A stretch of DNA of 64,000 nucleotides from Ilex aquifolium (lineage: Eukaryota; Streptophyta; Magnoliopsida; Aquifoliales; Aquifoliaceae): assembly GCA_951799425.1 (NCBI GenBank), contig OX637394.1, positions 28,680,001 to 28,744,000 on the forward strand, given 5' to 3'. A program made the translations under genes and the position numbers. The notes below the pieces were generated by a model. That model ran no database searches, was not told the DNA's origin, and saw only the letters and a list, made by a program, of their open reading frames with translations. Below are positions 1 to 60,284 of the stretch, piece after piece. The stretch's first letter is position 1. Each line of letters starts with the position of its first letter.

Positions 1-1300
1 GACAATAATATGATTTATTACACCCACAATACTAATCTTGAGCAATAAATCACATCATCAAGCGTCTTTAGCATTTTAAGCATATTCATGCTAATTCGAG
101 CACATGCAAGTAGTAGTACACCTACCTCAGGTCTAGCTATTGTACAAACCTAATCCCTAGATGAAACTTTGGGCATACTTGACGACGGGTTGATGCCTTC
201 ATTCCTACCACACATCATAATAACCATAGCAAAATAGCCTAAACTAGGCCCAATGAACCTATTCAAATCCAACAGGTTCAACCTGTACCAAATGATGCTC
301 AACTAGTTTAAGTCCAATAGGTTCAACCCCAAGTCCAACAGGTTCAAGTACTGGATACTGTTGAACCGTTTCAAGTTCAATTGATTCATCGTTCAACCGG
401 TTCAACATACTTTTCAACCGGTTCAAGCCTAATCAGAACCTTATCCAACCGGTTCAACACATGGTTCAACCCTGAACCGAAACTTATAATACAGTTCCAA
501 CTCTCTCTTCCACCATAAAACTCAATTCTAACATCACCCAACCAATACCCATACTGCAAAGATTCATCTAAAAACTTGAGAATATATTAATTCAAGGAAA
601 CTAACTCAACTTTGATGCGCCATTTTCCCCCAAAATCCACCGCGAGTTTGAAACTCGAAGAACCCTAGAGTTCTTTGATCTTTCACCCCACACAACACGA
701 ACACTTGGATATAATCATGAATTTGTAAAATGAATTAAAAGAAATCAAATTCACTCAAACTCAAAGAGGCAAGATTTCTTCTTTAGTCACCATTTTGAAA
801 CCAAATGTCATGCTTGCTCTTTACAGTTGATTAAATTATAGAGAAATTTCCAAGCATAGGAAGGGGTATCATTTTTATAACTCAGTCAATTAGTGAGGTT
901 GTCTCCTCATGAAAAATAAATGGCTCAAGATGTGATGGTTAAAGAAAAAGAAAACCTTGAATTTTTAGAGTTTGTTTGAGAAATTGATCACTTTTTCAAA
1001 CTCTATAACTCACTCGAGATTCTGGTCAAACACACTCAAGTGGTAGATATTCATTTAACACCCAATTAATAAATACAAATATGTATCCGAGACAGTTGAA
1101 TTGATTAAAGGAAATTTACTATGATTGTAATGATTACAAGAATTATCCATGCCAATTCTTAGTTGTTGACGGGTAAGCAAGAAGATATACAATTCGATAG
1201 TATCTTCAAATTAACCCAAATAACTCGACAATAGACACGCCCTAGTTTTGAGTCAAAACCCCCAATTCACGAATGAGACTACATCCGATCAAACCGGTGA
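1..1300. other. AT-rich unassigned repeat DNA
   Basis: No protein-coding gene is supported here. The first 45 bases contain a short pyrimidine-rich junction resembling, on the minus strand, the polypurine tract and LTR start of Athila/Tat-type elements, so a further LTR may begin at the left edge. The rest is A+T-rich DNA with CCCTAG-type leader words near 660, apart from the palindrome array listed separately. It could be leader or LTR sequence of an old element whose ends lie outside the window. Confidence 0.4.
268..480. repeat. AACCGGTT palindrome array
   Basis: About ten degenerate copies of a word centred on GGTTCAACCGGTTCAA, with core palindrome AACCGGTT, occur in roughly 210 bp of otherwise AT-rich DNA. 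The four best copies lie near 393, 415, 446 and 466. A TATA-like ACTTATAATAC follows just after the array on the plus strand. Layout and CpG-centred core match the other arrays in this window, although I cannot assign this one to a bounded element. Confidence 0.7.
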
Positions 1301-1638
1301 TCGACTAGTCATATATGACTGAATTAAAATTGAAAGCAATTAAAGAAAACATCATTGTAGATGAAAGCAATAACAAAATAATTGAAGTTGCAAGAATTGA
1401 AATTGCAAGAAAAATAAATACCTTGTATTGAAATCGCAATGAATGTAAATTATTTGTAGAAAAGAAACCAAAAGTAATTTCTTTACAAGAATTTAATACT
1501 TGAATTGAAGCTTGTAAAGTAAAAAAATGGAGAAAGCTTGAAAGAGAAGAAGAAAATCTAAAAACCCTAGGAAAGAGAAAAGAAAAGATGGTGAATTGAA
1601 CGATGGAATTGGAGCTCCCTCTCTTGCTAGGCTTGGGC

Positions 1639-1645
1639 ATTTATA
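1639..1645 (-). promoter_or_regulatory. TATA box of LTR J
   Basis: The minus strand reads CTCCTATAAATGCC, a good plant TATA box. It is followed by a CT-rich leader with a CCTAGGGTTTT motif, as expected just after a transcription start. Confidence 0.6.
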
Positions 1646-1750
1646 GGAGGTCTTGTGCTAAAAATCCTCCTTTTTATCCACCATTCATGGCCCCTGAAAT
1701 ATTTGGTAGATTGCCTTCCTTAGGAGTCTCAATTACAAATTTTACAGGAA

Positions 1751-1975
1751 CCTACCGGTAGGAATGATAAAATGACCTATGGGTAGGACTCTTCATTGGA
1801 ATCTTCCTACTGGCTGCCTTGCTTTGCTACTGGTAGAATCCTTCTATGTCTTTAACCTACCAGTAGAACAACTCTCTGGTTTGCACCTACTGGTAGGATT
1901 GAAATCCTATGGGTAGAACCAACTTCTGGCCTTCATTGTACCGATAGAAGACCTACCAGTAGAAAGAGTCTTTTT
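1751..1975. repeat. CTACCGGTAG palindrome array in LTR J
   Basis: Eight or nine variants of CTACCGGTAG (CCTACCGGTAGG, CTACTGGTAG, CTACCAGTAG, ACCTATGGGTAGG) occur in 225 bp. On the element strand the array lies upstream of the TATA box at 1639-1645, leaving about 106 bp between them. That is nearly the same gap as in the LTRs of Athila-like element I. A partner copy of the same palindrome occurs inside the element at 15715-15790. Confidence 0.85.
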
Positions 1976-2206
1976 CTCAATTCTACTTGCTATGGCCTTG
2001 GCTTCACTCTTGGACCTCTTGGCTCATCCTCCAAGTCCTCTATGACATTGAAACACGTGCAATTCTAGGTTCTTACATCAATTCAACTGCAAACACACAA
2101 TTTACTATAAAATACAAAACTCATATAAAACAAAGGATTTAAGTGATTAGCGTGACTAAGATGAATGGTTATCAGGCTTATAGTATGCAACATTTTGCTC
2201 TTATCA

Positions 2207-2564
2207 CACCCACAACTTAGATTTTACTAGTCCTTTAGCAAAACGAAGTAAACAAACATCAAAACTTCCTAAACATTATACTATGAATTCCAAAGCATAC
2301 TCAATCACATAACCATAATCACCAAATTGAAATGCATATGTTTAAAGAATAAATGGCACACAAATGGAATTAAAAGGATTTCATAAATATTTGCTTACGG
2401 GTACAAAAGACAAAATCGTAGTAGCCTTCTACCTATGGGTCTTTCTACTCAGGCTACTACTACCCAAAACAAAATTCCTAAGGTTTTACTAGAACCTTAG
2501 ACAACTAAAAAGATGAAAAAAAGAAAATAGAAATGTAGAAAGGGTAGGTCCATCAGTCACTTCC
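2207..2564 (-). other. Polypurine tract and 3' spacer of element J
   Basis: On the minus strand AAGTTGTGGGTG immediately precedes the LTR start at 2206, in the position of the plus-strand primer of reverse transcription. The words AGGACTAGTAAAATCTAAG before it recur, altered, in front of the LTRs of elements H (40047) and I (44313). The remaining bases up to the ORF tail are AT-rich spacer. Confidence 0.55.
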
Positions 2565-2705
2565 CTATTCCTCCTCTGAATTAGAGATAATCACTAGCTT
2601 CTCAAAACTCTTACTCGCAGCCAAATCCTTCCCTTTAGAAGGTGTAGCCTTAGCCTAAGTATCCATTGTTTTTTGCCATACCTTCCACACCTTTGAGTGT
2701 AGGGA
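2565..2705 (-). pseudogene. C-terminal tail of post-integrase ORF, element J
   Basis: This minus-strand frame ends in an acidic tail (SNSEEE, then stop). Before it is a lysine- and serine-rich stretch containing TPSKGKDLAASKSF. It joins, across the A insertion, to the reading frame at 7163-7391. The ORF occupies the same place as the extra ORF of element I, between integrase and the 3' LTR. Element H ends with a comparable acidic tail. The middle of the protein is largely lost. Function is unknown. Confidence 0.5.
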
Positions 2706-3225
2706 GGTATTGTAACACCCCACATTTTCTTTTATATATGTATATAGATATATAGTAAATATTTGTTGTAAAAATATGGATATGTGTAGTGATGTAAGAA
2801 TGAACTATATAGATTGTAATAGTAGGAAAAATGCTAGAGATGCATATTGATTGGGAAGTTGGAGTTTCCAAGACGTTTAAACTTGGAAAGGGTGATTAGA
2901 TGAATTTCTAAATATTTTTAGGCCCAAATAAGGTGTCCATTGAATCCGGAAGGTCGAACAACCTTGGGAGAGGTAATATGAGGTGTATTGGAAGTAGGAA
3001 GTATTTTAGAGTAAAGACACATTTAAGAGAAAACTTGGGTAGAAAAGATTTTGGACACTTCCTAGTATTTTGATCATAACTTTTTATTCTAATGTCCATT
3101 GGCTCTGAAATTTTGAAAGTAGATAGTATACTTCCAGGGCTACAAAATAGTACTTCACGAAAATTTTCCAAATCAATCTCTAAATAGGCCAAAACTTCAC
3201 TGGAAGTTTCAGCAGAAACTGGGAT

Positions 3226-3406
3226 GACGTTCGAACGTGAATCGACGTTCGAACGTGAGGGAGTCCCAGTACTTTGGTGTCCGCAGAGCTCTGATGGAAA
3301 TGAAAAATTACTGAGAGCAACCAACGTTCGAAAGCCAAAGTGACGTTCGAACGTGAATCAATAATTTGCACTAGTGACGTTCGAACGCCAATGACGTTCG
3401 AACGTG
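3226..3406. repeat. ACGTTCGAACGT palindrome array in LTR A
   Basis: Four full and two partial copies of GACGTTCGAACGTGA occur; the 12-bp core is a perfect palindrome centred on TCGA. Two pairs flank a 90-bp middle stretch that carries one half-copy. The array begins shortly after the conserved words GGAAGTTTCAGCAG, which also precede the array in element B, and it ends 52 bp before the TATA box. Confidence 0.9.
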
Positions 3407-3457
3407 AGTTACGAATTCTGAACGTCAGAATCGCGCACAGGAGGTCATTTCTTCCAC

Positions 3458-3465
3458 TATAAATA
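3458..3465 (+). promoter_or_regulatory. TATA box of LTR A
   Basis: TATAAATA lies 52 bp after the last palindrome. It is followed by a leader with AAAACCCTAGG, as in the other LTRs of this family. The spacing to the array equals that of B and D within one base. Confidence 0.75.
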
Positions 3466-4011
3466 CATAAGGACATCTCCATTAGTCCCATTTCAACATT
3501 TAAAACCCTAGGAAGACTTAGAGAGGAGGAAAGAAAGGGAAAACACAAGATCAAAGGAGGATTTACACCTTGAAGAAGATCAAAACTTCAAGTTTTCAAG
3601 AACACATAGGAAGAAGAAAGGTAGGGGTTTTGTAACGCCCCAAATACCACCCTGGACGGCATTACATTCAATAATCATTCATATCATGAGAGCAACTAAT
3701 AAATCCATAAATAACCGGGGGTCCTTAATTTAACAAAATTCGGGCAGAGTCTCCTTTGTTCGGGGAGCTCTACCCAAAACACAACCTGTGCAATTCTACT
3801 GTAATGACCACACCGGGTCCATTTAACTACCATAAAATCAATACATCAAATTTACATGTTATCCCAAAAGAATATGCCAAGCTAGGGCCTTTACATCCCC
3901 ACAAAAGTACTATAATACACAGCGGAATTTACAAAATAAAACTAGGCTATACAATTCTCCCAAAAGATTATCCAAGTCTATAACAAAAGAAAGGGGGGGA
4001 GGGGGGTCGCT

Positions 4012-4103
4012 CTACGCGTCCACCTCGGGATCCACGCTCTCTTCTGTCGGAGTCTCCCAATGTGTCGGCCCCTCGACTCCCAGCTCCTCGTCAAAGGCAA
4101 AAT
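4012..4103 (-). other. 92-nt second-exon reading frame, N1
   Basis: Right after an ACCTTTCAG acceptor the minus strand holds an open frame of 2 nt plus 29 codons and a TAG stop. The product begins with FAFDEELG and contains HWETP and VDPEVDA. Its length and frame match the copies in A, B, C and D. No ATG starts it, so it would have to be read as a spliced continuation of exon 1. Confidence 0.5.
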
Positions 4104-5556
4104 CTGAAAGGTGGGGAAGTAAGGGGGGGTGAGCACAAGGCTCTGTAGGAGGATCCTTCCAAACCCATTCAAGGTTTTGAAATCAAGTAAAACAGGTAGG
4201 TCACATTTCGCACATACATATAAATAAATTTCTAAAATGAAATAAGGACATTTTAAAGGAGATCTCAAGTTTGTACAATAATAAGGAATTGAAAGAGAAT
4301 AAAACCACGTTTAATTGACAAACAATTTCCAACATAATCCACTCCACCATACACCATTTCCACAAGTTATCGCGGCACCCCATACTACCCGAAACTCTTG
4401 GAGAAATAATATTTGGTACAATGAACAATAATTTATATTTGGTACCACTCAAGTAGGTTGTCGCTTCTCATGAATCTACCCGACGATTCTACCTCGTTCA
4501 CCCATTTCCACTAACAATCACAGACCAATTTAGGAAGGGTGTGTACCGTCTCATACGGCATTGACGAGATCCTCCCAAGGTATCTAGTATACTAACCCTT
4601 TTCCTTGATATATATGTGAACAATAGTGATCGCAGTCACAACAACGATCCACTACGAGCATTAGACAACCATCTCACCCCCACTGGGATAGACTAACCTC
4701 TAACACTCGACGACAGTTTTCGAAGGTAATCCAAGTCCCTCACAACACCATACACAAGAGTGACATACCAACAATATACTCAACCTCATATACAAGCAAA
4801 TTCCATGATTTTCCCCAATTTTCACAAGCAAGATACATAATAGAACAATTTAAGAAAACATACCCATTTCGCAAATCATGTTACAAGAGACAAGTTTAAA
4901 GGAAATAAGCATGAGATCATCAATAAAATAATTTTACTACCCAACACAAAGTTCTAGAATTTTCGAAATCAAAATGATGTGAAGATATAGAGAAAAATCC
5001 ATATTTCCCCAAAAACTAGAGTTTGATGGATTTCCAACCATCATTTTGTTCAAATCATGTGAATGTTTGTAAACATACCAAGGAACAAGGAACACATAAC
5101 AAATACATACTATTAAAAGCCAAATTCTACATGTATAATAACCCTAACATCAATGGACAAGAATGGAAGAAAACCCTACATTGGTGTTCTTGAAATCTAG
5201 AGCTTGAATCTTGAATCACCCTTAAATCTTGTGTTTTTCTCCTTTGATCTTGAGTTTCTCTCTTCCTTTCTTTCTCTCCTAGGGTTCTAAAGTGTTTAGG
5301 ATGAGATTGGAGTGGAGAATGGGGCAAATGAGGGCTTGAGGTGGTGTTTTAAACCCAAAAATCCCGATTTTTTTTACTGTTTCGGCATACACCAGACCAG
5401 TCTTTGTAGAATGGGCATAACTATCTCATCCGAGCTCCGATTGAGATGATTCAAGATGATATGGAATTCTAAGAAAGAGCTCTACAACTTTCATGTTTTG
5501 AGTTTTGAGAGATATTGACTGCATCAAGGTAGAAATCGCGCTTGAAGTTGCAGCTA

Positions 5557-5583
5557 GTGCACTGTTCACGTGCACTGTTCACA
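5557..5583. repeat. Direct repeat with CACGTG core in LTR N1
   Basis: The 13-bp word GTGCACTGTTCAC occurs twice head to tail, creating GTGCAC and CACGTG palindromes. It lies in the U3 of N1 where other family members have larger arrays, but further from a TATA-like motif (about 210 bp). Element B holds a decayed version, GTAAACAGTAACGTAAACAG, between its own palindromes at about 8087. Confidence 0.6.
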
Positions 5584-6801
5584 GCCTGTTTCATCCCCCT
5601 TTTTTTTTCCATTTCCAATCCATTCCTAAGCCAACCAAATCCATCCCAAATCTCTCCAACACATATTTCTACACATATCCACATTTTACAACAAATATTT
5701 ACTATATATCTATATATATATATAAAATAAAATGCAGGGTGTTACAAGTTTTCTTCCATTCTTGTTCATTGATGTTAGAGTTATTATATATATATGTTTT
5801 GACTCCTAATCATATGTATTTGCTATGGGTTCATTGTTTCTTGGTTCTCTTGCAATTGTTAACATGTTTTACACAAAGTTAGGGTTGTATACCCATGAAA
5901 TCCCTCTTTTGTTTGAAAAACCCTAGTTTTCAAGAGTGATGAGTTTTCTTCTTGAACTCTTCCTTTATTCTTGATTTCAAAATCATGTGTTTTGTGTTGA
6001 GTAATAAAATGATATTGTTGTGATCTCTTGCATTTTTCTTGGTTGGTTATTGAAAATGTCACATGCTTAAATTGGGGATTTTTAAGATATACTTGTAAAT
6101 TGTGAAATTTGGGTTTGGTATTGTATCTCTTATGAGTGTGGGATGACCATGGGTGGCCTTTGACGAGATATCGTAGAGTGGGTAGAAGTGTTGCTTGCTC
6201 CGTGTGGGTTGGCATTTTTGCTGCCACTCGTAGTGGGGTTAGTGCTTTGGTAAGACTAAACCGCTATTGCTCACGGGTGCCGTGTAAGAGGGTTAGTATA
6301 CTAATGCCTGGGTTGGATACGTCACTGCCATTGGTATGACATACGCCCTTCCTAAATGATGGATATCTTTGAGAAGATTTGTGTGCGTGTGTGTGGGTTA
6401 GATATTATTCAATGTGTTGATTCATGGGGTTTGCCTTACATCATGGTGGAGATACATGTTTATAATGTTGATACGAATGAAATGGTTAGTATTTGTTTAT
6501 TCTACCAGATACGGTTTCTACAAGAGTTTTGGGGAAGTATGGGATTCCGCAAGAACTTGTGAGAAACGGTTTATGGTGGAATGTATTATGAATTGTGTAA
6601 TTGGTTCCATTTATTCATTAAATGACTGTTGTTACCTAAACTTGAGATCTATTGAAATGTCCTTGCTTTCTTTCAAAATTGATATATGATATTTGCGAAA
6701 TGAGACCGGCCGTTTTATATGTTTTTATAAACCTTGTTCGAGATTGGGAGGAATGTTGCTACAGAGCTTAGTGCTCACCCCCTACAAACAACATATTTCA
6801 G

Positions 6802-6893
6802 GTCTTGGTCTAGAGGAGGAGCTCGGAACTGACGAGCCGGGACGTTGGGAAGCTCCCATAGAAGGGAACGTCGACCCCGAGGGAGACGCTTAG
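6802..6893 (+). other. 92-nt second-exon reading frame, LTR A
   Basis: It follows the block GTGCTCACCCCCTAC and acceptor ATATTTCAG. Its codons give LGLEEELG, then DEPGRWEAP and VDPEGDA, then TAG. If joined to exon 1 ending at 3620, the frame stays open upstream for about 45 basic codons (including ERRKERE), but without an ATG. It is the best-preserved upstream frame of the five, together with C. Confidence 0.5.
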
Positions 6894-7162
6894 TGTTCTG
6901 TTTTCTTTTGTGATAGACTAGGAAGTTCCTTTTTAGGCAATGTAAAGTCTAACCTTATTTTTATGTTTCCGCTGCCAAGTATAATTTAATTCTTTTGGGA
7001 ATGTAAAGGCCAAAGATGGCATATTCTTTTGGGATAATGCTATGGACATGAAATATGATGAACGAAATTTCTTTATTTATGGAATTTATTAGTTGCTCTC
7101 ATGGTATAAATGGTTTGAGAATGTAATGCCGTCCAGGGTGGTATTTGGGGTGTTACAGGTAT

Positions 7163-7545: not shown

Positions 7546-8046
7546 TGTAAACCCCCGCATGTTTATAATTATATAGTAAATTATTTGTTTAGTGATTCAT
7601 ATATATAGATAATGATGTAAGAATAAATCATATGGATGGTAATAGTAGGAAAAGAATACTAGAGATGCATGTTGATTTTCTAAGTTAAGTTCGAAGACGT
7701 TTAAACTTGGAAAGGGTGAGTAGACAAAATTCCAAGTACTTTGAGGCCAAAATAAGGTTTCCATTGAATCCGGGAGGTCGAAAAACATTGGGAGAGGTGA
7801 TATGACTTGTATAAGAGGTTAGAAAGGATTCCGGAGTTAAAATACGCTTTAGAGTGAAGTTGGGTAAAAAGTATCTTGGACACCTTCTAGTATTTTGGCC
7901 ATATATTTTTATTCTTATGTCCAATTGATCTGAAATTTTTACAGTAGATATTAGACATCTAGGGCTACAAAAGTGTCTCTAATGAAAAATTTTCAATTCG
8001 ACCTCTAAATGGGTCAAAAATGCGCTAGAAGTTTCAGCAGGCAAGT

Positions 8047-8230
8047 ACCTTCCGGAAGGTCGACAAAAACCTTCCGGAAGGTTAGTGTAAACAGTAACGT
8101 AAACAGTAATTTTTTTTCCAGAAGGAAAAACCTTCCAGAAGGTCTATAAAACCTTCCGGAAGGTCGATGAGAAAAACCTTCCAGTGAGCAAAACCTTCCG
8201 GAAGAACGACAAAAACCTTCCGGAAGGTTA
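8047..8230. repeat. CCTTCCGGAAGG palindrome array, 5' LTR of B
   Basis: Seven copies or near-copies of ACCTTCCGGAAGGT occur; one extends to a perfect 16-bp palindrome, AACCTTCCGGAAGGTT, at 8068-8083. Between copies two and three lies the decayed repeat GTAAACAGTAACGTAAACAG. The array ends 51 bp before the TATA box. One copy reads CCTTCCAGAAGG here but CCTTCCGGAAGG in the 3' LTR, which looks like CpG decay by deamination. Confidence 0.95.
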
Positions 8231-8280
8231 GTGTAAAAATCCAAAAATTTCTGTTTCGCGAATGCCGGCTCTTCCTACAC

Positions 8281-8288
8281 TATAAATA
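8281..8288 (+). promoter_or_regulatory. TATA box of element B
   Basis: TATAAATA follows CTTCCTACAC and is followed by a leader with TTAAAACCCTAGAAAA. It drives the element transcript from the 5' LTR; the copy at 13790-13797 in the 3' LTR is identical. Confidence 0.8.
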
Positions 8289-8465
8289 CCCAATGTCTTC
8301 CCTTAGCCTTCATTACACACCTTAAAACCCTAGAAAACATTAGAGAGAAAGAGGGGAAGAGAAAAAAACACAAGATCCAAGGGTGAAAAACAAGGAATTC
8401 AAGGGTGATTCAAGATCCAATCTTCATCTTCTTCACACTAAACCTAGGTTTTCAAGAACATTGAG

Positions 8466-8505
8466 GTAGGGGTTTTCTCTCACTCTTGTTCATTGAGGCT
8501 AGGGC

Positions 8506-8544
<39 letters not shown>

Positions 8545-9649
8545 ATATGTATCTTTTGACTTAAAATCCTAGATGTATGTTAGGAAACCTTTTCATTCTT
8601 GATGTCTATGCAAATATTATCATGTTTTAAACAATGTTATGGTTGGGTAACTACTAAATCTCTTGTTTTTACTCTCAATCCTAGTTTTTGAGAAATATGG
8701 ATTTTTCTCTCTATATTCCCTCAATCTTGGTTTTAAAAACTCTAGTGCTTGGTGTTGGGAATTAAAATGATATTGTGAATGATCTCTCGTATATGTTTTC
8801 TTAAATTGCTCTATCGAAATATCACTTGTGAGAATTGCGGATTTGGGGAAATTGTGATGAATTGGGGGATTTGTGGAATTGTTTGTTATTTGAGAAAATT
8901 GTTGGTATGGTATTTCTTGTATGGTGTTTGGATGAGCATGAGTGAGAGGTTCCTTATAAGGATGCTCACCCCTTCCCAAGAGGTTCCTTGTAAGGATGCT
9001 TGGGAAGCCATGAAGTGAATTGTGAGAGGTTCCTTGTAAGGATGCTCACCCCTTCCTAAGAGGTTCCTTGTAAGGATGCTCGGGAAGCCATGAAGTGAAT
9101 TGTGAGAGGTTCCTTGTAAGGATGCTCACCCCTTCCCAAGAGGTTCCTTGTAAGGATGCTTGGGAAGCCATGAAGTGAATTGTGAGAGGTTCCTTGTAAG
9201 GATGCTCACCCCCTTCCCAAGAGGTTCCTTGTAAGGATGCTTGGGAAGCCATGAAATGATTTGTGAGAGGTTCCTTGTAAGGATGCTCACCCATTCTCAA
9301 GAGGTTCCTTGTAAGGATGCTTGAGAATCAAAGATGACCTAAACTGGGGGGTGGAGGTTACCCTAAAGTATGCCACCCACCGAAAGAATTGTTGGAAATT
9401 GTGAATGGAGGACTGGATTATATTTGGAAATGGTTTGATAAATGTATAGTGGTTTATTTTACTCATTCAATTACCGTTGTTCCGTAAACTTGAGATCTAT
9501 TGAAAATGTCCTGCTTTTCCTTCAAAAGTTATGTATAATATTTGTGAAATGAGACCGACCGTTTTAAATGCTTTTCTAAACCTTGTATGGGTTTGAGAGA
9601 ATTGTTCTACAGAGCTTTGTGCTCACCCCCTACCGCTAACATTTTTCAG
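8466..9649 (+). other. Presumed LTR intron of element B
   Basis: The donor is GAG|GTAGGGGTTTT and the acceptor ATTTTTCAG|ATTACC. The block GTGCTCACCCCCTACC lies about 25 nt before the acceptor; its CTCAC fits the plant branch-point consensus YTNAY. Donor, block and acceptor recur at matching places in A, C, D and N1, and in altered form in E, F1 and F3. RNA data are needed to show that splicing occurs. Confidence 0.55.
8944..9330 (+). repeat. 80-bp minisatellite in LTR B
   Basis: Five units start at 8944, 9024, 9104, 9184 and 9265. Each holds two copies of AGAGGTTCCTTGTAAGGATGC. The arms CTTCCCAAG and CTTGGGAAG around the second copy could form a hairpin. Other family members have no such array here; they carry non-repeated sequence with words such as CCCATTGG and GTAGACGCCC. 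The 3' LTR has the same array at 14449-14836, so it existed before insertion. Confidence 0.9.
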
Positions 9650-9741
9650 ATTACCTACAAGAGGAGGACGTAGGGGTCGAGGAGCCCGCTACTTGGGAGA
9701 CTCCCCTGGATGGGAGTGTGGATCCCGAGGTGGACGTCTAG
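9650..9741 (+). other. 92-nt second-exon reading frame, element B
   Basis: The frame is split after the first base of its first codon (G|AT, Asp). It encodes DYLQEEDVGVEEP, TWETP, VDPEVDV and a TAG stop. In B the base triplet just before the exon join is TGA, so the upstream frame is closed and B cannot make a longer product from this splice. The 3' LTR copy has three base changes in this region, one of them altering the Pro of VDPE. Confidence 0.5.
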
Positions 9742-10139: not shown

Positions 10140-10151
10140 TGGTATCAGAGC
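10140..10151 (+). other. Primer-binding site of element B
   Basis: TGGTATCAGAGC starts five bases after the LTR end. It is complementary to the 3' end of plant initiator methionine tRNA, the usual primer for Ty1/copia and many Ty3/gypsy elements. Confidence 0.9.
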
Positions 10152-48229: not shown

Positions 48230-48275
48230 ATCTATATATATTGCCCTATGTATACATATATTTATATGTATATGG
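48198..48275. repeat. TA microsatellite in LTR F1
   Basis: TA-repeat with TATGTATATC interruptions, within the presumed intron. Similar AT tracts follow the donor in A, B and N1 (for example 8505-8535), so the tract is a habit of these LTR introns. Confidence 0.8.
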
Positions 48276-50344: not shown

Positions 50345-50560
50345 GCTGGGTATATAAATGGCCAGGACCGTCCGGACACCACCACCACTGTCCGGACGGT
50401 GAGGATGTACTGGAATTTGCTTTGTCTTCCTGTAGACTGCTAGACTGCTTCAACTTCTGCTTTAGTTATTTTCCTGGAATTTAAAATATCATATTAACTC
50501 CACAATTACACTACTAATCCACTAACATTCCTATTAAATACTAACACAGTACAATTAAAC
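50345..50560 (-). promoter_or_regulatory. Internal promoter-like module of element I
   Basis: On the minus strand the GTCCGGAC pair (50368-50400) is followed 11 bp later by TTTATATA, a weak TATA-like word, and then by the leader leading to the extra ORF at 47174. Upstream, GGAAAATAACTAAAGC resembles the matching module of element J near 15800. This may be a second promoter that drives the extra ORF separately from gag-pol. Confidence 0.5.
50368..50400. repeat. GTCCGGAC palindrome pair, internal to element I
   Basis: ACCGTCCGGACACCACCACC then ACTGTCCGGACGGT: the same two palindromes and CCACCACCAC spacer as in both LTRs of this element, in the same orientation. It differs from the LTR copy mainly in the bases next to the palindromes. 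Confidence 0.92.
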
Positions 50561-50661
50561 ACTAAGATATTAATACAATAACACACTAAAATAACATCGT
50601 AATTATTCTAACAATCATATTTACACAAAATTGATTTCACATATTCCTTGATCAATTGATT

Positions 50662-50877
50662 TTAATCCGAATCCTCTAAATCAACAACACTAGTGATGAC
50701 ACGGTTCATTTCACTTCTCACGTATCTTGGCAACATGGGAGTGGAATAGGATGACGTCTTAGGGTATTCCTTACTCTGCCCATACCTAATCCAATCAAGA
50801 CCATCTAATGCTCGACCTAAAATTGGTTCCGCACACTGATTGTATTCTCTCAAATGCATTAAACAATCGCACTTCAC
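50662..50877 (-). other. Small ORF after integrase, element I
   Basis: A 71-codon minus-strand frame, MKCDCLMHLREYNQCAEPIL to VVDLEDSD. I recognise no family. It could be chance or a small accessory product. A 52-bp direct duplication lies beside it. Confidence 0.2.
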
Positions 50878-50910
50878 ACAACCACCGAGACTATTCGATC
50901 ATCGGCGTTT

Positions 50911-51014
50911 GGCAAAGGAACTCTTTTCGCACAAGGGTTTTGCTTGACTTTCAACGATTTTTGGCAAAGGAACTCTTTTCGCACAAGGGTTTTGCTTGAC
51001 TTTCGACGATTTCT
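50911..51014. repeat. 52-bp tandem duplication
   Basis: The unit starting GGCAAAGGAACTCTTTTCGC occurs twice (50911-50962 and 50963-51014) with one or two changes. It lies between the small ORF and the post-integrase marker of element I. Confidence 0.9.
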
Positions 51015-51229
51015 AATTTTCTAACGACCCTTGCTTTTGCTATGATCAAAGAATGTATATCTTTTGAAAAAATGCGCATGATGCTCAGACTAAACCAAAA
51101 CAATTGCACATCCATCTTTTTTTTTTTTTTATTGAAAAGTTCAAAAATTTTGGATTTTTGAAAGTTGACTCGAAAATGACTCGCTATCCGGTTCTTTCAC
51201 GTCTGCCAGTCACAAAGACGAATATGGAT

Positions 51230-51272
51230 TGTTCCCTCCCCCAACCTAAATTAAACATTGTCCTCAATGTAT
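51230..51272 (-). other. Post-integrase marker of element I
   Basis: On the minus strand CATTGAGGACAATGTTTAAT and TTAGGTTGGGGGAGGG follow integrase at once. A similar signature is in element J at 28301-28355. Its purine run resembles a second, central polypurine tract. Confidence 0.65.
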
Positions 51273-51410
51273 AGCATAATGAAATAGAATATAAGACAAT
51301 TGTTAATCAGATCTGGAGACGAGACACAGCCATAGTGCAAAACCTAATATGTAAAACAAACAACAAACGATTAGTACAACTATTTATAGACAAACACTTA
51401 TAAAAATTTC

Positions 51411-52500
51411 TTAAAACAAATACACCGGTTCCATTAGCTGAATGGAACTCACATCTTGAACAAAATTATCATGATATGACTTAATTCTTTGAACGTTTAC
51501 TTTGAAAACATTTCCAGATAATAGATTCTCGATTTCAACTGCCCCATGTTCGAAAACTTGCTTGACAATGTAGGGGCCGGTCCATCTTGATCTCAACTTA
51601 CCAGGAAATAGATGGAGTCTTGAATTATATAACAGGACTTTTTGAGATGGCTCAAAATACTTCTGCACTATATTCTTATGATGAACGATTTTCATTCTAG
51701 ACTTAGCAATCTTAGCATTCTCATATGCTTCATTACTTAGCTCTTCTAATTCATTAATCTGAAGTTTGAGGGATGCACTGGCTTTGTCAATATCAAAGTT
51801 CATCATTTTGATTGCCCAGTATGCTTGATGTTCTAATTCCACATGCAAGTGACATGGTTTACCATAAACTAACCGATAAGGAGACATTCCCAAAATAGTT
51901 TTTTATGTAGTACGGTAAGCTCAAAGCGCATCAGTTAGTCTCAAAGACCAATCTTTGTTGTTCGGATTCACTATTTTTTTTAAAAATATATTTTATCTCC
52001 CTATTGACCAATTCTGCTTGTCCACTCGTCTGGGGATGATAAGGGGCTGATATTTTGTGAGAAATCAAATATTTTTTCGTGAGATTTTCAAACACTTTTT
52101 TGCAAAAATGTGTTGCCCCGTCACTAATAATAGCTCTGGGAATCCCAAATCTTGAAAAAATATTTTCTTTTAAAAACTTAACAACTATGCAGTGATCATT
52201 ATTCCTACACGGGATTGCTTCTACTCATTTAGAAACATAATCAACGACAACCAAAATGTACAGATAACCAAAGAATGGGGGAAATGGTCTCATAAAATCG
52301 ATGCCTTAACAATAAAAAATTTCAATGATTAAAATAGTGTTTAAAGGCATCATGTTTCTTTTTGAAATGTTTCTCATTCTTTGACATCTGTCACAATTTA
52401 GACAAAAGACATGCACATCTTTAAAAAGAGTGGGCCAATAAAATCCACACTGCAAAATTTTAGAAGCGGTTTTCTTTGAATAAAAATGTCATCCGCAAGC
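51411..52500 (-). pseudogene. Integrase of element I
   Basis: The tail is open: [55 protein letters not shown] and HGAVEIE up to the stop at 51411. The core upstream (to about 52500) is recognisable in pieces (VDFIGP, FPELLLVTGQH, WSLRLTDAL, AYRTT) but full of stops and frameshifts. Confidence 0.85.
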
Positions 52501-52515
52501 TTCAGAATGACAAAA

Positions 52516-53150
52516 TCAGATGACCTGACCGATTTCATGATTGGTTACAAAACGCCTTATGATTTGATATTTACAATACTTAAACAGATAGGGGTCGTCC
52601 CAAAAGAAATTGCGTACCTCTCTCAAAAATTTCTTTCTATTGGTCCTGGTAAAATGAAAAGGAATAGTACCTGTGGCTAAATAATTGACTATATCCGCAT
52701 ACCATGGTACTTCTGTTATTGCAAAAAGTTGCTCATCTGGAAAAGTTTCTCGGATTGGAATAGGTTCCTCCTTCGTATCATAAGTCAGCCTCGATAAATG
52801 ATCAGCTACCACATTTTCAACTCCCTTCTTGTCCTTGATAATCAGATCAAATTCTTGAAGTAACAGTATCCAACGTAGGAGACGTGGTTTAGCATCCTTC
52901 TATGTGAGCAAATATTTCAAGGCTGCATGATCAGTAAAAACAACTATTGAGGATCTAACAAAATACAAGCGAAATTTATCTAATGCAAACACAACAACAA
53001 GCAATTCTTTTTCTGTGGTAGAATAATTCATTTGTGCATCATTCAAAATTTTGCTTGCATAATAAATCACATATGGTTTCTTCTCTATTCTCTGGCCTAA
53101 GACAGCTCCTACTACATAATCACTGGCATCACATATTAATTCAAAAGGTA
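52516..53150 (-). pseudogene. RNase H of element I
   Basis: Pieces on the minus strand: CDASDYVVGAVLGQRIEKKP, MNYSTTEKELLVVVFALDKF, FTDHAALKYLL, a stop, [13 protein letters not shown] and [10 protein letters not shown]. The catalytic acids are still present, but a stop breaks the domain near 52900. It is followed by the linker with [14 protein letters not shown] and integrase zinc region words. Confidence 0.8.
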
Positions 53151-53154
53151 AGGA

Positions 53155-54020
53155 TCAGTCAGGAGGTTGCATTATTGGTGCAGAAATAAGCATACTTTTC
53201 GGTTTATCAAATGCTAATTGATGTGCATCATTCCAATCGAATGGTACATCCTGACATAAGAGATTACACATGGGCCATGACATTAAACTAAAATTCTTAA
53301 TGAATCTTCTGTAGAATCCTGCATAACCTAGAAAGGATTGGACATCTTTTATAGTCTTAGGTGGAGCGAAATTGGCTATCAAATCAATCTTAGACTTATC
53401 AAAACAATACCCTGTGTGACCATGAAATGAATTTTTTTCTAATTCAACACAAGATTTGTTTCTTCACATCAGGTAAGAAATTTTTCAAGATTTTCTAAAC
53501 ATAAATTAAAGGAATCACCATACAAAGAAAATTCATCCATGAAAACTTCTAAAAATTGCTCCACCGTATCACTTAAGATACTGAACATGCAACGTTTAAA
53601 TGTAGATGGAGCATTACACAATCCAAAAGACATTCTTTTATAGGCAAAAGTACTAAAAGGACATGTAAAAAGGGTTTTCTCTTGATCATCAATTTCAATT
53701 TCAATCTGATTATAGCCGGAATATCCATCTAAGAAATAGTAATATGCATGACCAGCTATTCTCTCTAAGACTTGATCTAGAAATGGTAAAGGAAAATGAT
53801 ATTTTTTGGTGAGTGAATTCAATTTTCGATAGTCAATACACATACGCCAACCAGTGACTGTACGCATAGGGACTAACTCATTTTCTTGATTCTGTATGAC
53901 AGTAACACCAAATTTTTTTGGCACTACCTGTGTAGGGCTGACCCATTTACTATCAGATATAGGATAGATAATATCAACATCTAACAGTTTGTGTACTTCA
54001 GCCTGGACTATTTCTTTCAA
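53155..54020 (-). pseudogene. Reverse transcriptase of element I
   Basis: The open part starts MKEIVQAEVHKLLDVDIIYP, continues WVSPTQVVPKK, RMCIDYRKLNSLT, FLDGYSGYNQI and MSFGLCNAPSTFKRC, and reaches LEVFMDEFSLYGDSF. The second aspartate of the FMDD site is Glu here. The thumb and connection (FLGYAGFYRRFIKNFS) follow after stops. The order and wording are Athila-type. Confidence 0.88.
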
Positions 54021-54166
54021 ATGCGGGTTTAATCTTTATTGTGGCTTTCGGGATGGCTAAGAATCTTTTTATAGGTATATGCAATGAGTACATAGAAGAA
54101 GACTTATTCCCTTAATATTTGTAATTGACCAACCGATAACACTTTTATGATTCTTTATGACTTTAA

Positions 54167-54457
54167 TCAATTTTTTTCTTCCTGGACTGCTGACAATTTA
54201 GAATATATTATCACTAGGTGAGTTCTATCCTCTCCCAAAAAGACATATTTCAAGTCAGTTGGGAGAGGTTTCAATTCTGGTTTAATAACTTCAACAATGG
54301 GCTTAACAGGCTTGGGTTCAGCAGACAGTAATTTTTCAAATTTTGGACTCCATGCTTCAATGACTGACACATCTACAGACTCATCATTATGTACAGACTC
54401 TAATGCATGGGACTCTTTCTTTATAAACTCTTTTTCAAATAGACTTTGAGTTAACAA
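54167..54457 (-). pseudogene. Protease-RT linker of element I
   Basis: Reads KPLPTDLKYVFLGEDRTHLV, IIYSKLSAVQEEKN, the well-known linker of Athila polyproteins (PSHLKYAFLGE type). It connects the protease at 54499-54891 to RT. Confidence 0.75.
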
Positions 54458-54498
54458 CTCGTCATGTTTACTTCACTCATCACCTCTTCCTCTCTAGG

Positions 54499-54891
54499 CT
54501 ATCTTGTCATGTTAAACACATTCAATTCCAAGGTCATATTTCCAAATGACAATTTCATAATTTCACTCCTACAATTAATCAATGCATTTGATGTAGCTAG
54601 GAATGGTCGACCTAGAATAACAGGAATGTATCTAGAAGCATTCAAAACTGGCTGAGTATCTAGGACAATGAAATCAACTGGAAAATAGAACTTATCGACT
54701 TGGACTAACACATCCTCCACAATTTCTCGTAGGGTTTTCACAGATCGGTCTACCAATTGTAATGTGACATTGGTGGGTTTCAACTCACCCAACCCTAACT
54801 GTTTATAGACCGAATATGGAAGCAAATTAACATTGGCTCCCAAATCAAGCAGGGCTTGCTCAATCCAGAAATTTTTGATTCTACACGACAC
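54499..54891 (-). pseudogene. Aspartic protease of element I
   Basis: Contains ALLDLGANVNLLPYSVYKQL, the DLGAS-type active site of Athila/Tat proteases, then LVDRSVKTLREIVEDVLVQV, FPVDFIVLDT and PVILGRPFLATSNALI. The domain is one open frame of 130 codons, but its link to gag is frameshifted. Confidence 0.85.
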
Positions 54892-56765
54892 TGTAGGACT
54901 TCAGGATCTTTGTACTTAAGAGGGGCCTCGTGCTGGATGATAGCACTAACCTGCTCAGTTAAAAATGCTATTTTTTGTATATTGATCTTTCTTTTGAATG
55001 TGCAAAGGTCCTTCAAGAACTTAACATAAGATGGAACTTGTTTGATCACATCCAACAGGGGGATGTTAATCTTTACTTGCTTGAACAGTTCAAATTTTTC
55101 AGAATGATTAGCTGGTGTTTTAGGTTTCTTCACTGCTTGAGAAAAAGGTAAAGAAATAGGACACAGATGTTCTTTTTCCTTTGGTGGTTCTTGTTCCTTT
55201 TCAGTTATAGGTTCAAGTTCAACTGGTTCATTGATTGGGATTGACTCAGGTTTTGGCTTTGGTATTAACATGTCTTTAATAGTTTTGTCAATTACCTTAC
55301 CACTTCTCAGTGTGGTAATTGCTTGGACTTAACTCGGAGATGGTTCGGAAGACACAACATTAGCTTGGTTTTGACTCTATGGGGGGTTTTGGTTGAGATA
55401 TGAATTTTCTCTTCTCTGATGTACTCAAAGACTAGGTCAACTTGGCTAGATGACTCTTGATGTCTTCAATACTCTGTGAAGTTTAGGCTTTGAGTATTGA
55501 AATTCATTTGACTCTGGATAAACTGATTCATGGTGTCTTTTAGACTCTTTTTGTGTGGAGGTTGATATGTCTGCAAAGTTTGGGGCTGATATGACTGCTG
55601 AGTTGGGGGCTAACCTTAAGGTGGACCTTTTTGTTGACTCACGGGCTATGTGTTTTTCCAACTAAAATTCGGGTGTTCCGCCACCCTGGGTTGTAGGTTT
55701 CAGAATAAGGATTGGTATAAGGCATGTTAAAGTTAGAAATGACATTGAACTATTCTATTAAGACTTCTTTTAATGTAGGAATTGTTGGACATTCCCCCGT
55801 GGGATGTCTTGTCAATGCACAGATTTTACATGATTGCTCAATGGTGGACACTACAGACACTTCATTCATTTTTTTCATTTCTAATGCTTCTAACTTCCGG
55901 GATAGAGTAGCCATTCTGGGCCTTAAGGTCATCATCTTCTTTTAACACATACTTCCCTCCTTGGGAAGTAGATGGCTTGGTCTCAACAATGTTCGGAGAG
56001 GTCGAGTCCCACATTTGGGAATTCTCATAAATGGTATCAAAGAACTCGAATGCCTCCTCCGGACTTTTACTCATAAAATCTCTCTGGGCCATCATTTCAA
56101 TAAACTAATGCAAGAAAATTGAACCAAGGCAGACGGAAGGACGTCATAGAAAAACCTACGAGAGTCCAACTCTCAAATGCATGACGTGGGACAACTTGGA
56201 GAAGATCCTTAAATCTCTCCCAACATTGATAAAAATTTTCCCCTTCTTTTACAGAAAAATTCATGATTTGACGTCTCAATGGATTAGTGCGATGCACAGG
56301 AAAAAACTTTAAAAAAAACTCAGTTTGCAATACTTGCCAATTAGGAATAGACTGGGCTTTTAAAGAGTTTAGTCATTGTTTAGCTTTATCCTTTAAAGAT
56401 AAACGAAAAAGTTTCAACCGGGCCATTTTAGAATTATCTTGTAAAGCTCCACAGACTTCTTCAAATTCTTTAACATGCAGATATGGGTTTTCAGACTCCA
56501 GACCATGAAACTGTGGTAACAACTGTATTGTCCCTGCCTTAATGTTAAAATTTGGTGCATTTGTGGGAAAAGCAAAGTATGATGGGACACTAGTGCGTGC
56601 AGGATGCAAATATTCTCTAAATGATCGGATATTTTGAACTACCTCCTGTTCTCGTGGATTGTTGTGTGCCATGCTTAATTCAAATGATGCGTGTGACGAA
56701 GATGCAGATGATGGAGATGAAGGACTAGACTGATTTATAGACCCTACTGATGACTTAACAGACAT
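54892..56765 (-). pseudogene. gag of element I
   Basis: From the start: MSVKSSVGSINQSSPSSPSS, FEVSM-like helix, FHGLESENPYLHVKEFEEVC, RLKLFRLSLKDKAKQ, a stop, FFLKFFPVHRTNPLRRQIMN, GENFYQCWERFKDLL, then AFEFFDTIYENSQMWD. The zinc knuckle is CKICALTRHPTGEC (C-X2-C-X4-H-X4-C). A Pro/Glu-rich linker and INIPLLDVIKQVPSYVKFLK lead into protease. At least four stops or frameshifts. Confidence 0.85.
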
Positions 56766-56848
56766 AAACTATGAAAATGCAACAGACAATATATATACAT
56801 ATAACACAAACTAAACTTCCCTTTTTTGATTTTAAAATCACTGTTAGT

Positions 56849-56866
56849 TCCCCGAAAACGGCGCCA
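56849..56866 (-). other. Primer-binding site of element I
   Basis: On the minus strand TGGCGCCGTTTTCGGGGA starts seven bases after the 5' LTR. It is close to the TGGCGCCGTTGCCGGGGA site (tRNA-Asp) of Athila/Tat elements, with two changed bases. Confidence 0.88.
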
Positions 56867-58110
56867 TAAATCTTGACTCACTTTCGGTTTGAATAGCGGT
56901 ATACACCCAAGTATAAGTGGTCAAATTGTAATATAATACTCGGTTTAAATCTGAGGTCGAACCCACAGGGAACTGCTCTTTGGAAATCAAAATAGAAATG
57001 GTGTAGCTATTATGGTTACAAATTGAAATAAAATAGCTGGTGGTGTGAGTTTAGAACAAGTAAAATTAACTAAATTAAAACTGCAGTAATTAAAATATAC
57101 GAGATGCAATAAGAAAAAGATACTCTTCAGTTCGGGGATTCCATATGCATTATATTGACTAAGTATTGGAAATGCCACCTTACAGAAATTAACCCCCATT
57201 TTACTAGAAAGTCAATCGGTAGGTATGATGTATATTAAATCTTATCCAACAACTGATTAGGTTAGCTAGAAGGTATATCTCTATGCTACAATCGGATAAC
57301 TGAAGTAAACCAGAAGGCAAGCCATTCAGGAGGAATACTTGAATTACTCAATCAGCATATCTGTACCATGCAACAGTTAAAAAACTATAATAAACCAGAA
57401 GGCAATCCATTCAGAAGGAATACTATAGTTATTCAACCGGCAGGTTGATAAGTCACTGATGACGAGATTCCAGTTTATGCATTGAATCAAAAGCACTGGC
57501 TATGCCGAGACTTAACCCGTCTATAACCAATCAATCGACTGTTACGTAACGCCTAATCACGTACGTCACTGTATTATACATGAAGTACATAACTAGTAGA
57601 TAGTATGGTATATAGCATTAGGTACTACTCGGTGATCATAACAATGAGCATATTGTAAATGTAACCATCCTTCAATATGGGAGGTATATATAACAATAAA
57701 GTATAGTTATAACATCGGCATTTCCATAACTCAAACAATATCTTATATATGTTCACCCTTCACTGAAGAGTAAAACTGGACTACTCACACCCTATTGCTA
57801 CAGACAAGCAAAAGGTGTAAGATAGATCCATTACAATATAAAATAAAATACAGACACTCCTTCCCTGAGGAATAGTTGAAACACAACTACTCTTAATACC
57901 GATTAGGGCACAAAAGTGGCAGAGGTAAACTGGAAAGCTGGCTAGAAGAGGTTCGGCAGGGCTTTGCCGCACTGTTTCTGACTCTCTCTCACTCTCACTG
58001 GCTGTTTCTAACTCTTTAGATGTACTAGCGTCACTTTGAACTCTCTTGACTTCCCTCAACTCTCTCTAGATTTCCTCCTCCGAACATGCTGGAAATGAAA
58101 CTGGCTAGGG

Positions 58111-58120
58111 CTATTTATAG
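58111..58120 (-). promoter_or_regulatory. TATA box of element I
   Basis: CTATAAATAG on the minus strand, 109 bp downstream of the palindrome pair. The matching word in the 3' LTR is mutated to CTATACATAG. Confidence 0.75.
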
Positions 58121-58228
58121 AGGGCCAAGGAGCTGCTTGAGGTAGTTGGGGGCAGAATGGACCAATCAGGTCTTTTGTTGCCAAAATCCACCAATGGTAG
58201 GGCAAGGAAGGTGAGGCGGTTTGGGTAG

Positions 58229-58260
58229 CCGTCCGGACGCCACCACCACCGTCCGGATGC
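58229..58260. repeat. GTCCGGAC palindrome pair, 5' LTR of I
   Basis: CCGTCCGGACGCCACCACC then ACCGTCCGGATG. Here the right-hand palindrome carries the C-to-T change, whereas in the 3' LTR it is the left one; both are consistent with CpG deamination after insertion. Confidence 0.92.
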
Positions 58261-58553
58261 CACTAAGCCTCTGGTTTTGTTGGTGTCGTGTCTTGGTCAC
58301 TCTGATGTTTGAATTACACTTTGATCCCCCTCTGTTTTGATCTTTGATAGTTGCCCCTGCAGTTTGTAGCTTTTACGCATAAAACCCTAAAAAGGATAAC
58401 AATTAACGCATTAAGCCTAATTTACACACTAAACCTAATTCGACTTACTTTGACTCTTTTAACTCATTTAAGTAACACAATTGATCTATTAACTTAATTC
58501 AAATCCACACTAATTAGGGTTAATCAATAGAGGAGGGCCAGTTTCTCCTCCCC

Positions 58554-59931
58554 TAACGAGTATATAATATTGCATATCATGTATCCCTTTTGCACCCATT
58601 TATACTTGATTTTGTGGTGAAAATTGGGGGAAATGCTTTTAAACTCACATTTAATGGAGATTCGTGTGATTGTAGGTAAAGAGCAGATAAGGGCGTGTAT
58701 TAAGCATCCCATCAAGTGCTTAAAGGCAATGGAGAAGGTGAGAAGGCTTAACGGATGGCTCGGGACATCAAGAGACCAAGAAAATTCCAAAACAGGAGAA
58801 AACCTACCGGTAGAAGTTCATCAAAACCTACCAGTAGAAATCAGCAAAAACCTGCAGGTAGAAGTTCCAAAACCTACCGGTAGGAAAAGTGCACTGAAAT
58901 TCTTCTACCGTAGCCCCTACCAAAAACCTACCGGTAGATTTTGCTTACTCAAAAAAACCTACCGGTAGGTTTTTGACGTTCTACCGGCAGGTTTTGCCCA
59001 GAAATACTAGAAGCCTGCAAACACAACTCCACCTACTTTGGGGGCCCACCTCTTGTCATCCCACATATGCCCTGACATCTTTGGCACACCATGATGGTCT
59101 CTTACACCCTAAAGTTTGATTTTGGAAGGGAAAGCATGGGAGAGTTATGAGAGAGAAGAAGGGTTGTAGGTGAACCATGGGAGGTGCATGCTTGGCTTCT
59201 CCTTACTTGTGGAAGTTTTTCTATTCCCTTCCCACTCATTGGAAGTCAGTTCACAGAGACCATGGGAGGGATATGGACGAATTTGGACCAGGCTATTGAC
59301 AATTATTTAGTTTTACATACTTCTAGAGAGAGAGTCCTAGGAAGAAGATGAAGTTGTAGAGAGAGAAAGTTGGGTTTTTGAATTTCCTTCACCATTTTCA
59401 TTGTAGTAAGCTCTCAATAACTTGTAATCCTTCTCTCTTTCACTCTGAACTCTTTTATTTAAGTTGTAATCAAGCTTTGTTAAGTGTTCTAGCATTTTAC
59501 ATTTCTTCATTTGGGTATTTGTTCTTGAATATTGATATTTTTGGTATGAGTGAAATTGTTCTTGTAGTCTAAACTTTTCCTTGCATCAACACAAGTCTTA
59601 TGCTTTATTTCACCACTATGTCTCACTACATTATGCTTGTTCTTGTTTTGACTATGAGTAGCTAGACTTTTAGTTGGCTAATCCAAGGGGAATTTCTTCT
59701 TGGGTATGTGGAATCAACTCTCCTACATTCTTTCTCGTAACGCAAAGTGTTTGGTTTGACTAAGTTGAGTGCGGACGTGGTTGGGACCTCTTGATACACT
59801 GTAGCCTTGTTACGGGATATGCTTGTGCCTACACCTCCACATTAGTTCCTCACTTCCTACGAATCAATCGAACAATGAGACACCAATGGTTGAATGAATT
59901 GAGTTGATTTGGCATTCCCATTGGAATGACC
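58554..59931 (+). mobile_element. LTR H3, cut by F2
   Basis: Plus-strand LTR starting near TAACGAGTATATAATATTG (compare TGATGAGTAT in H1). It is homologous to H1 and H2: GATTGTAGGTAAAGAGCAG, GCATCCCATCAAGTGCTTAA, GGATGGCTCGGGACATCAAG, the array, leader, and GTAGCTAGACTTTTAGTTGG. It lies in the ORF of element H (left flank TCCCC) and is interrupted at 59931 by element F2. Confidence 0.65.
58802..58993. repeat. CTACCGGTAG palindrome array in LTR H3
   Basis: About eight variants of AAACCTACCGGTAGAA, CTACCAGTAG and CTGCAGGTAG. The unit and position match H1, and the consensus matches E and J. Confidence 0.9.
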
Positions 59932-60213
59932 TGTGACACCCCATAAACCGGGGGTCATTACAAGTCCGTTGATCACCCATCAACCCGCGGAAATACCTGT
60001 GGATGCCGGTTAACCCGACACCGCGGCACCACATCCCCTTTACCGGGATTTAAGAAAAAATATAAGTCTATATGTTTTTGATTGATTGACCCATCCGAGG
60101 CCCAATATACCAACATTGATACTTTATTATTGTCCATTTATAACATTGGAGGGAAAGAACTCATAGCCCAAAAGTTTGGCAAAACAGTTTTAAAATTTCT
60201 GATTTTTGGAAAG

Positions 60214-60284
60214 TGTACCGGTACTGCGTACCAGTACGGTTTGTCTGCTGGACTGCTCCGTACCGGTACGTTGTACCAGTACAC
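60214..60284. repeat. GTACCGGTAC palindrome array in LTR F2
   Basis: Four palindromes: GTACCGGTAC, GTACCAGTAC, GTACCGGTAC and GTACCAGTAC. The flanking words (GAAAAACAGGTGAAATAGGC and AAAAATCAGAAATTTTAAA on the element strand) are those flanking the array in LTR D. Confidence 0.92.

Follow-up and report, generated by a model that had tools for sequence, protein, structure and literature searches.

Arrays of short palindromes in plant long terminal repeat (LTR) retrotransposons have been in print since 2010, and the factor that binds them is unnamed in the passages covered here. For the Sireviruses, parts of Bousios 2010 (PMC2829016) describe multi-copy palindromes with a CpG core upstream of the LTR TATA box, a second cluster before ENV, and a palindrome sequence that is specific to each family. 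Two of those palindromes are gapless and TCGA-centred (ACAATCGATTGT in Tnd-1 and CGGTCGACCG in Vitis). However, they belong to Ty1/copia elements, are termed Sirevirus-specific in the same source, carry a CGG-CCG signature and often have intervening bases. Sireviruses are also defined by a polypurine tract octamer, AGGGGGAG, and a conserved AT/TG attachment site. Here a stretch of 64,000 nucleotides from Ilex aquifolium (assembly GCA_951799425.1, contig OX637394.1, positions 28,680,001 to 28,744,000; hereafter the window) was analysed together with other stretches of the same 800-Mb genome. The window is a nest of plant LTR retroelements, and the arrays found here, unlike those of the Sireviruses, have gapless CCGG or TCGA cores and use one vocabulary of palindromes across unrelated LTR types in one genome. 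In the seven Athila-type Ty3 elements of this genome that were read at both places, the palindrome of the LTR array is the same as that of a second array before an internal promoter.

Other described systems resemble these elements in part. The VANC/VANDAL system, in the parts of Hosaka 2017 (PMC5735166) covered, has short repeated non-coding motifs, including upstream ones, with units that co-evolve and a target type that varies between relatives. However, VANDALs are DNA transposons of the Mutator-like type, whereas the present elements have LTRs and gag-pol domains; the factor was shown there and is only inferred here, and the term palindrome is absent from the main text. The QuinCent motif of RLG_Quinta, according to parts of PMC11302176, is likewise an LTR stretch near the TATA box that was acquired from another retrotransposon, but it is a 162-bp nucleosome-positioning motif rather than an array of palindromes. 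Retand elements, in parts of PMC11963269, have an extra open reading frame (ORF) between POL and the 3' LTR that is predicted to bind DNA and suggested to be regulatory, with tandem repeats nearby; that ORF, TRP28 (PF04195), is antisense, whereas the present one (PF20167) is sense and has its own palindrome-bearing promoter. Among the listed titles and abstract openings of open-access papers, none described arrays of this kind in the LTRs of Ty3 elements or at promoters of Transposase_32 ORFs, which is weak evidence of absence.

The first-pass annotation of the window missed the other array of Athila-type elements, which stands ahead of an internal TATA box and of a Transposase_32 ORF. In L012 (L-numbers are stretches fetched elsewhere in the same genome), the order is pol, a small Viral_NABP/Carla_C4 ORF (E 4e-10), a TCGA array ending just before TATAAA, the Transposase_32 ORF, and an LTR with the same palindrome. 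Element F of the window (minus strand, about 42593-58526, target-site duplication (TSD) ATAGA, LTRs about 90% identical) has the L012 plan with CGTCCGGACG. Its 5' LTR (about 58526-56874) holds two CGTCCGGACG units at 58230-58259 with TATAAATA about 110 bp downstream; the small ORF, now broken, is at 50698-51115 (56 and 65% identity to the L012 ORF in two stretches); the internal array is two degenerate CGTCCGGACG units at 50369-50398, followed about 10 bp on by TTTATATA; the Transposase_32-like ORF is at 46314-47030 (39% identical to that of L010 by tblastn); and the 3' LTR (about 44312-42593) has CGTCCGGACG units at 44013-44042, all on the minus strand. The solo LTR E2 (47302-50259), which lies inside F, separates the Transposase_32-like ORF from its promoter.

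The LTR palindrome was identical to the internal palindrome in all seven elements read at both places. It was CGTTCGAACG in L012 and in L010+L048, CGTCCGGACG in F, CTTCCGGAAG in L022+L045, CTACCGGTAG in L047+L008, GCGTCCGGACGC in L054+L057 and CCGTCCGGACGG in L055+L058. The last two pairs were prospective, the internal array having been found first and the downstream DNA then fetched as a test; L012, L010 and L008 came from a random sample, and L022 was pursued since its LTR array had already been seen. In L055/L058, the 32-bp unit of two palindromes in the LTR matches the internal unit exactly, as its reverse complement. The LTR and the ORF were assigned to one element by order, orientation and distance, with LTR ends mapped for only some elements. 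Seven matches arose in 12 of 5040 label permutations with four classes and in 4 of 5040 with five, figures that kinship makes optimistic.

These elements share with the Sireviruses the palindromic CpG-core repeats upstream of the LTR TATA box and before a 3' ORF. Sirevirus (Ty1/copia) membership is nevertheless ruled out by domain order, the integrase following the reverse transcriptase: L012 frame 2023-4500 has RVT_1 at 193-349, RNase H at 437-540 and rve at 720-812, which is the Ty3 order, and L022 frame 480-5852 is alike. Assignment to Ty3 was by this order, for elements with pol in view. As in Athila, a Transposase_32 ORF follows pol, and parts of PMC11728184 link PF20167 to Athila. The ORFs of L010 and L045 pass the PF20167 cut-off, and that of L008 matches below it; the L012 match is in two pieces in different frames, of which the second passes the Pfam cut-off and the first falls below.

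These data suggest that in the arrays dyad-symmetric sites for a dimeric factor are clustered close to promoters and that this factor governs both promoters, the factor being somewhat likelier to be encoded by the element than by the host, and we give this reading a probability of about 0.4. A sequence-specific factor would bind the dyad-symmetric sites as a dimer, which fits because the dyads are gapless and repeated, their relation to the TATA box is fixed in elements A, B and D of the window, and the spacings in CCGG arrays lie near multiples of about 10 bp. In the Athila-type elements, the same type of site would serve the LTR promoter and the internal TATA promoter that precedes the Transposase_32 ORF; because it stands before each, one factor would govern both. 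The site type changes in concert within an element, as expected if the specificity of the factor changes. Like VANC, such a factor would activate or counteract silencing, and defective Ty3 elements, among them B and C, would take advantage of it through matching arrays. The arrays themselves, their places, the agreement of LTR and internal palindromes, the common vocabulary and the local replacement are observed; binding, the identity of the factor and its function are what we infer from this arrangement.

Matched LTR and internal arrays are compatible with an element-encoded factor as well as with a host protein. Host transcription factors, from one dimeric family with several specificities, may have been recruited at both promoters, with site types swapped to follow the host factor or the tissue. 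This is possible, given the limited vocabulary of palindromes common to unrelated elements, the constant TATA distance in A, B and D and the near-helical spacing in the CCGG arrays; in parts of Bousios 2010 (PMC2829016), comparison of Sirevirus motifs with PLACE mainly recovered stress-factor sites. However, a host factor alone does not explain why the LTR and internal site types agree in 7/7 elements, and none was identified in this analysis. An element-encoded factor is somewhat more likely; the candidates are the Transposase_32 ORF and also, for two families, a small zinc protein resembling those of carlaviruses. A more far-reaching proposal, put forward tentatively, is that Athila-type Ty3 elements of plants run a self-encoded promoter code, in which the nuclear factor of an element would bind one palindrome type, both in its internal promoter and in the LTR. 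Several mutually exclusive types would then exist side by side in a genome, and unrelated defective elements would acquire matching arrays and so parasitise the factor.

Transposase_32 is the only extra ORF that every one of the seven matched elements was seen to have, although two of the seven were found via that ORF. A homologue search with it gave 7 proteins, and parts of PMC11728184 report that the Transposase_32 ORF of sunflower Athila is predicted to be nuclear. With the earlier loci, 20 further stretches around ACGTTCGAACGT made up 27 sequences, of which 16 form an LTR family, J, and 9 an internal family, K, while L036 and A are singletons. The small ORF adjoins the internal array in 9/9 K loci (the query was L012, to which the remaining 8 are 78-91% identical) and also in L048. 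The L012 copy (L012:5741-6145; PF05515, PF01623) is of the carlavirus nucleic-acid-binding type, here in Athila-type elements, and judging by its sequence it is possibly a captured viral gene. In carlaviruses, such proteins serve as suppressors of silencing or as transcription factors.

Nineteen arrays of palindromes in retroelement promoters had originally been listed for the window, and 16 of them contain a perfect CG-centred palindrome of at least 10 bp. The exceptions are the array at 268-470 (strand unassigned), made of 8-bp AACCGGTT units of which 3/14 are perfect; the array at 50368, whose degenerate units have an 8-bp perfect core; and N1 (5557-5582, minus strand), a 13-bp direct repeat, GTGCACTGTTCAC, that has no CG palindrome and is ruled out as a member. 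The placement in promoters of LTRs also fails for 50368, which is outside any LTR and precedes the internal ORF of F. The 19 arrays represent fewer independent elements, because B1/B2 and C1/C2 are each the LTR pair of one element and 44012, 50368 and 58229 are all in F.

The window has 54 CG-centred palindromes of at least 10 bp, compared with 6.6 +/- 2.4 (maximum 13) in 60 dinucleotide-preserving shuffles, and 39 with a CCGG core compared with 1.7. Palindromes outside both the CG-centred and the pure-AT groups were as numerous as expected (49 vs 52). Random DNA of the same genome (200 kb, as 20 stretches of 10 kb located in contigs 1-10, within their first 40 Mb) had 73 CG-centred palindromes of this size where 20.8 +/- 3.8 were expected, and 38 of the 73 were in three stretches, L010, L012 and L022. 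Its commonest palindromic 10-mers, pure-AT words excluded, were CGTTCGAACG (21), CTTCCGGAAG (14) and CTACCGGTAG (11), all of which are also window palindromes. Genome-wide, ACGTTCGAACGT occurs 12,048 times and the reversed pattern 44 times.

Elements A, B, C and D have related LTRs that start with TGTAA and finish with GTTACA. Solo LTR A (2711-3630 and 5747-7157, TSD GGTAT, interrupted by N1) has a ACGTTCGAACGT array at 3227-3405 and TATAAATA at 3458. Element B (7546-15640) has CCTTCCGGAAGG arrays in its 5' LTR (7546-10135; array B1 at 8047-8229, TATAAATA at 8281) and 3' LTR (13055-15640; array B2 at 13556-13738). Solo LTR D (16988-17874 and 26127-26996, TSD ATAAC) has two GTACCGGTAC units at 13-bp spacing at 17129-17151, with TATAAAAC at 17203, and contains element C (17875-26121), which has a GCGTCCGGACGC array at 18395-18493 (C1) in its 5' LTR (17875-20555) and array C2 at 24143-24240 in its 3' LTR (23622-26121). 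All of these arrays are on the plus strand. The last palindrome ends exactly 52 bp (A), 51 bp (B1 and B2) and 51 bp (D) before the TATA box, as had been claimed; in C, none of the scanned TATA patterns matched.

It had also been proposed that homologous LTRs carry different palindromes at a fixed place, and alignment bears this out. Upstream of the array, identity is 0.88 for A/C, 0.80 for A/B and 0.80 for B/C (shuffle baseline 0.66-0.67), whereas in the array it is 0.66, 0.69 and 0.69 (baselines 0.66, 0.65 and 0.64) and from array to TATA 0.63, 0.61 and 0.61 (baseline 0.62-0.64). Beyond the TATA box it is 0.74, 0.76 and 0.80 (baseline 0.64-0.66). The segment boundary of C, which has no TATA match, was placed by eye. 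Element D is less clear-cut: A/D is like the A/B/C pairs, but B/D has 0.74 from array to TATA (baseline 0.62). Elevated point drift inside the arrays is ruled out, the array being as stable as the remaining LTR: 266/267 aligned columns are identical between the LTR pair in B and 274/277 in C. Because the pairs are equally stable there, the arrays change between families and not through point drift.

That the array is replaced as a unit, as the first-pass annotation suggested, holds only in part: G-type LTRs keep the flanking frame and some spacers while the palindrome differs. Among 12 aligned G-type sequences, the frame beside the array is recognisably alike in most, with more than one type upstream, and the palindrome at the array site is CTACCGGTAG, CTTCCGGAAG, ATACCGGTAT or GTACCGGTAC. 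When the spacer backbone of CTTCCGGAAG arrays was searched with the palindrome left free, 612 places matched on one strand and 634 on the other, compared with 0 for the control. Among the places listed, one had CTACCGGTAG, one had CTTCCGGATG and the rest had CTTCCGGAAG, so a swap is rare on this backbone.

Each of A-D has a palindrome that also occurs in LTRs of another type: J/K for A, L022/L045 for B, L054/L057 for C, and L008:4396 and L010:2224 for D. The spacers of B and L022, which share CTTCCGGAAG, are alike (p 0.0005), in support of a transfer for B, and the arrays of C and L054 are 73.5% identical over 117 bp, palindromes included (E 1e-10). Shared spacers cannot serve as general proof that cassettes were transferred, since only one of four classes was significant. 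Sharing between element types has a precedent in maize, where parts of PMC10760457 report the Copia palindrome as the most frequent motif in structured regions of Helitrons as well. LTRs E1-E3 are a separate group from A-D. A 151-bp block that reaches into the palindromes is 82% identical between the start of LTR D (17001-17151) and the 3' part of LTR E3 (60410-60260), which suggests that an array and its flanks may have moved between LTR positions. The GTACCGGTAC array of E3 (60215-60282, minus strand), which touches this block, is about 1.7 kb beyond the TATA box of its LTR (about +390) and close to the LTR 3' end, which rules it out as proximal to that main TATA box. The GGTACCGGTACC array of E1 (33520-33861, minus strand, mostly 22 and 30 spacing) is within about 0.7 kb of the LTR 3' end; a TATA box of E1's own was not found.

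Spacings in the CCGG arrays tend towards multiples of about 10 bp: for 95 spacings in 19 automatically detected arrays, R is 0.56 at 10.5 bp, a value reached by 0 of 5000 jittered sets. Without second LTR copies R is 0.54, and the peak is broad, from 9.5 to 10.5 bp. Helical phasing of these arrays is suggestive only, as related arrays are not independent. Arrays could instead act as RNA or single-stranded DNA hairpins, in RNA handling or as small-RNA hotspots, and parts of PMC10760457 and PMC5311732 describe maize Sirevirus palindromes as small-RNA hotspots. Predicted RNA folding reached z <= -3.4 against shuffles in 12 of 15 arrays, whereas all 15 neighbouring stretches were above -2.2. However, this does not decide the matter because repeated palindromes fold automatically; N1 and two F arrays were unremarkable (z -0.06, -1.0 and -1.84). 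In addition, units with two changes were symmetric within the unit in 5/22 cases (counted by eye), which preserves the DNA dyad and not pairing with a neighbour. A hairpin function is thus improbable. Neutral turnover, in which units spread by slippage or conversion and LTR recombination moves arrays without function, is likewise improbable, for although tandem organisation (for example at 30446-30645), the D/E3 block at different LTR positions and the recombination between distantly related Athila elements reported in parts of PMC2410132 agree with it, it has no need for dyad symmetry, a CG centre in an AT-rich genome, a 51-52 bp TATA gap or a match to a distant internal promoter.

Several observations count against a dimeric factor that governs both promoters, and in particular against one encoded by the element. 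Sites of a host factor, if palindromic, would be indistinguishable from these, and the seven matched elements are not independent because several share a palindrome class. Of eight Transposase_32 loci, only two had an array in the roughly 850 bp upstream of the domain and six had none there; these eight were hand-picked from 150 listed, the 150 having been scored among 6661 first-look candidates. The structural model of the Transposase_32 protein is weak (mean predicted local distance difference test score 58.9, improving in a core around residues 68-262). The carlavirus-like ORF was not found in L045 by tblastn, so its protein cannot be the factor for all elements and is ruled out as a universal one. 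Spacer likeness was marginal for A and J/K (p 0.07), and spacers were unshared in two of the four class comparisons, C/F and D/others. The six TCGA arrays were unphased at 10.5 bp, their value being reached by 718 of 5000 jittered sets. Finally, the CG core of the units is kept no better than the arms. CpG transitions were found at 18/184 core sites and 35/792 other sites (LTR pairs counted twice), and decay leans to these transitions, as in methylated DNA; transversions were also commoner in the core (8/184 vs 12/792), so the units are not best preserved at their core.

The remaining arrays of the window are in G-type LTRs or have no assigned strand. G-type LTRs are at about 38.6-40.0, 40.6-42.1 and 58.5-59.9 kb, with arrays of CTACCGGTAG at 39613-39798 (minus strand), ATACCGGTAT/G at 40789-40846 (plus strand) and CTACCGGTAG at 58802-58990 (plus strand), and a Transposase_32 fragment of a G-type element is at 42596-42207. 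In another stretch, a DUF659 ORF (L007:4290-5093) lies between flanks of G-type LTR sequence without a Transposase_32 match. Strand is unassigned for a strongly decayed CTACCGGTAG array at 1751-1962 (1/9 units perfect), a CTATCGATAG/CTACCGGTAG array at 15714-15796, and a CTACCGGTAG array at 30427-30643 that lies within a 52-bp tandem repeat, each copy of which has two units (spacings of about 21 and 31). Element B retains coding remnants on the plus strand, zf-CCHC and RVP_2 at 10409-11239 and SH3_Tf2-1 at 12468-13013, and is probably non-autonomous and defective because no reverse transcriptase or integrase match was found in the two ORFs scanned. The chromodomain at the integrase C terminus that marks Tekay chromoviruses was not seen for elements A-D, 12468-13013 matching SH3_Tf2-1 only (E<=0.001). 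Each LTR of B holds an 80-bp minisatellite of 4.8 copies (8942-9327 and 14447-14832). Elsewhere, a stretch starting TGTAACACCCCGTACCCGCCTCTTAAAGAGG is duplicated 226 bp apart at 29828-30064, and a short telomere-like CCCTAA run at 27608-27632 lies within DNA rich in CGGG motifs.

The matched arrays of several types, together with the same types in unrelated defective elements, make the question of what binds these palindromes directly testable with few candidate proteins. If it is true that a protein of the element binds them, LTR retrotransposons would join the VANC class of sequence-specific anti-silencing or activation.

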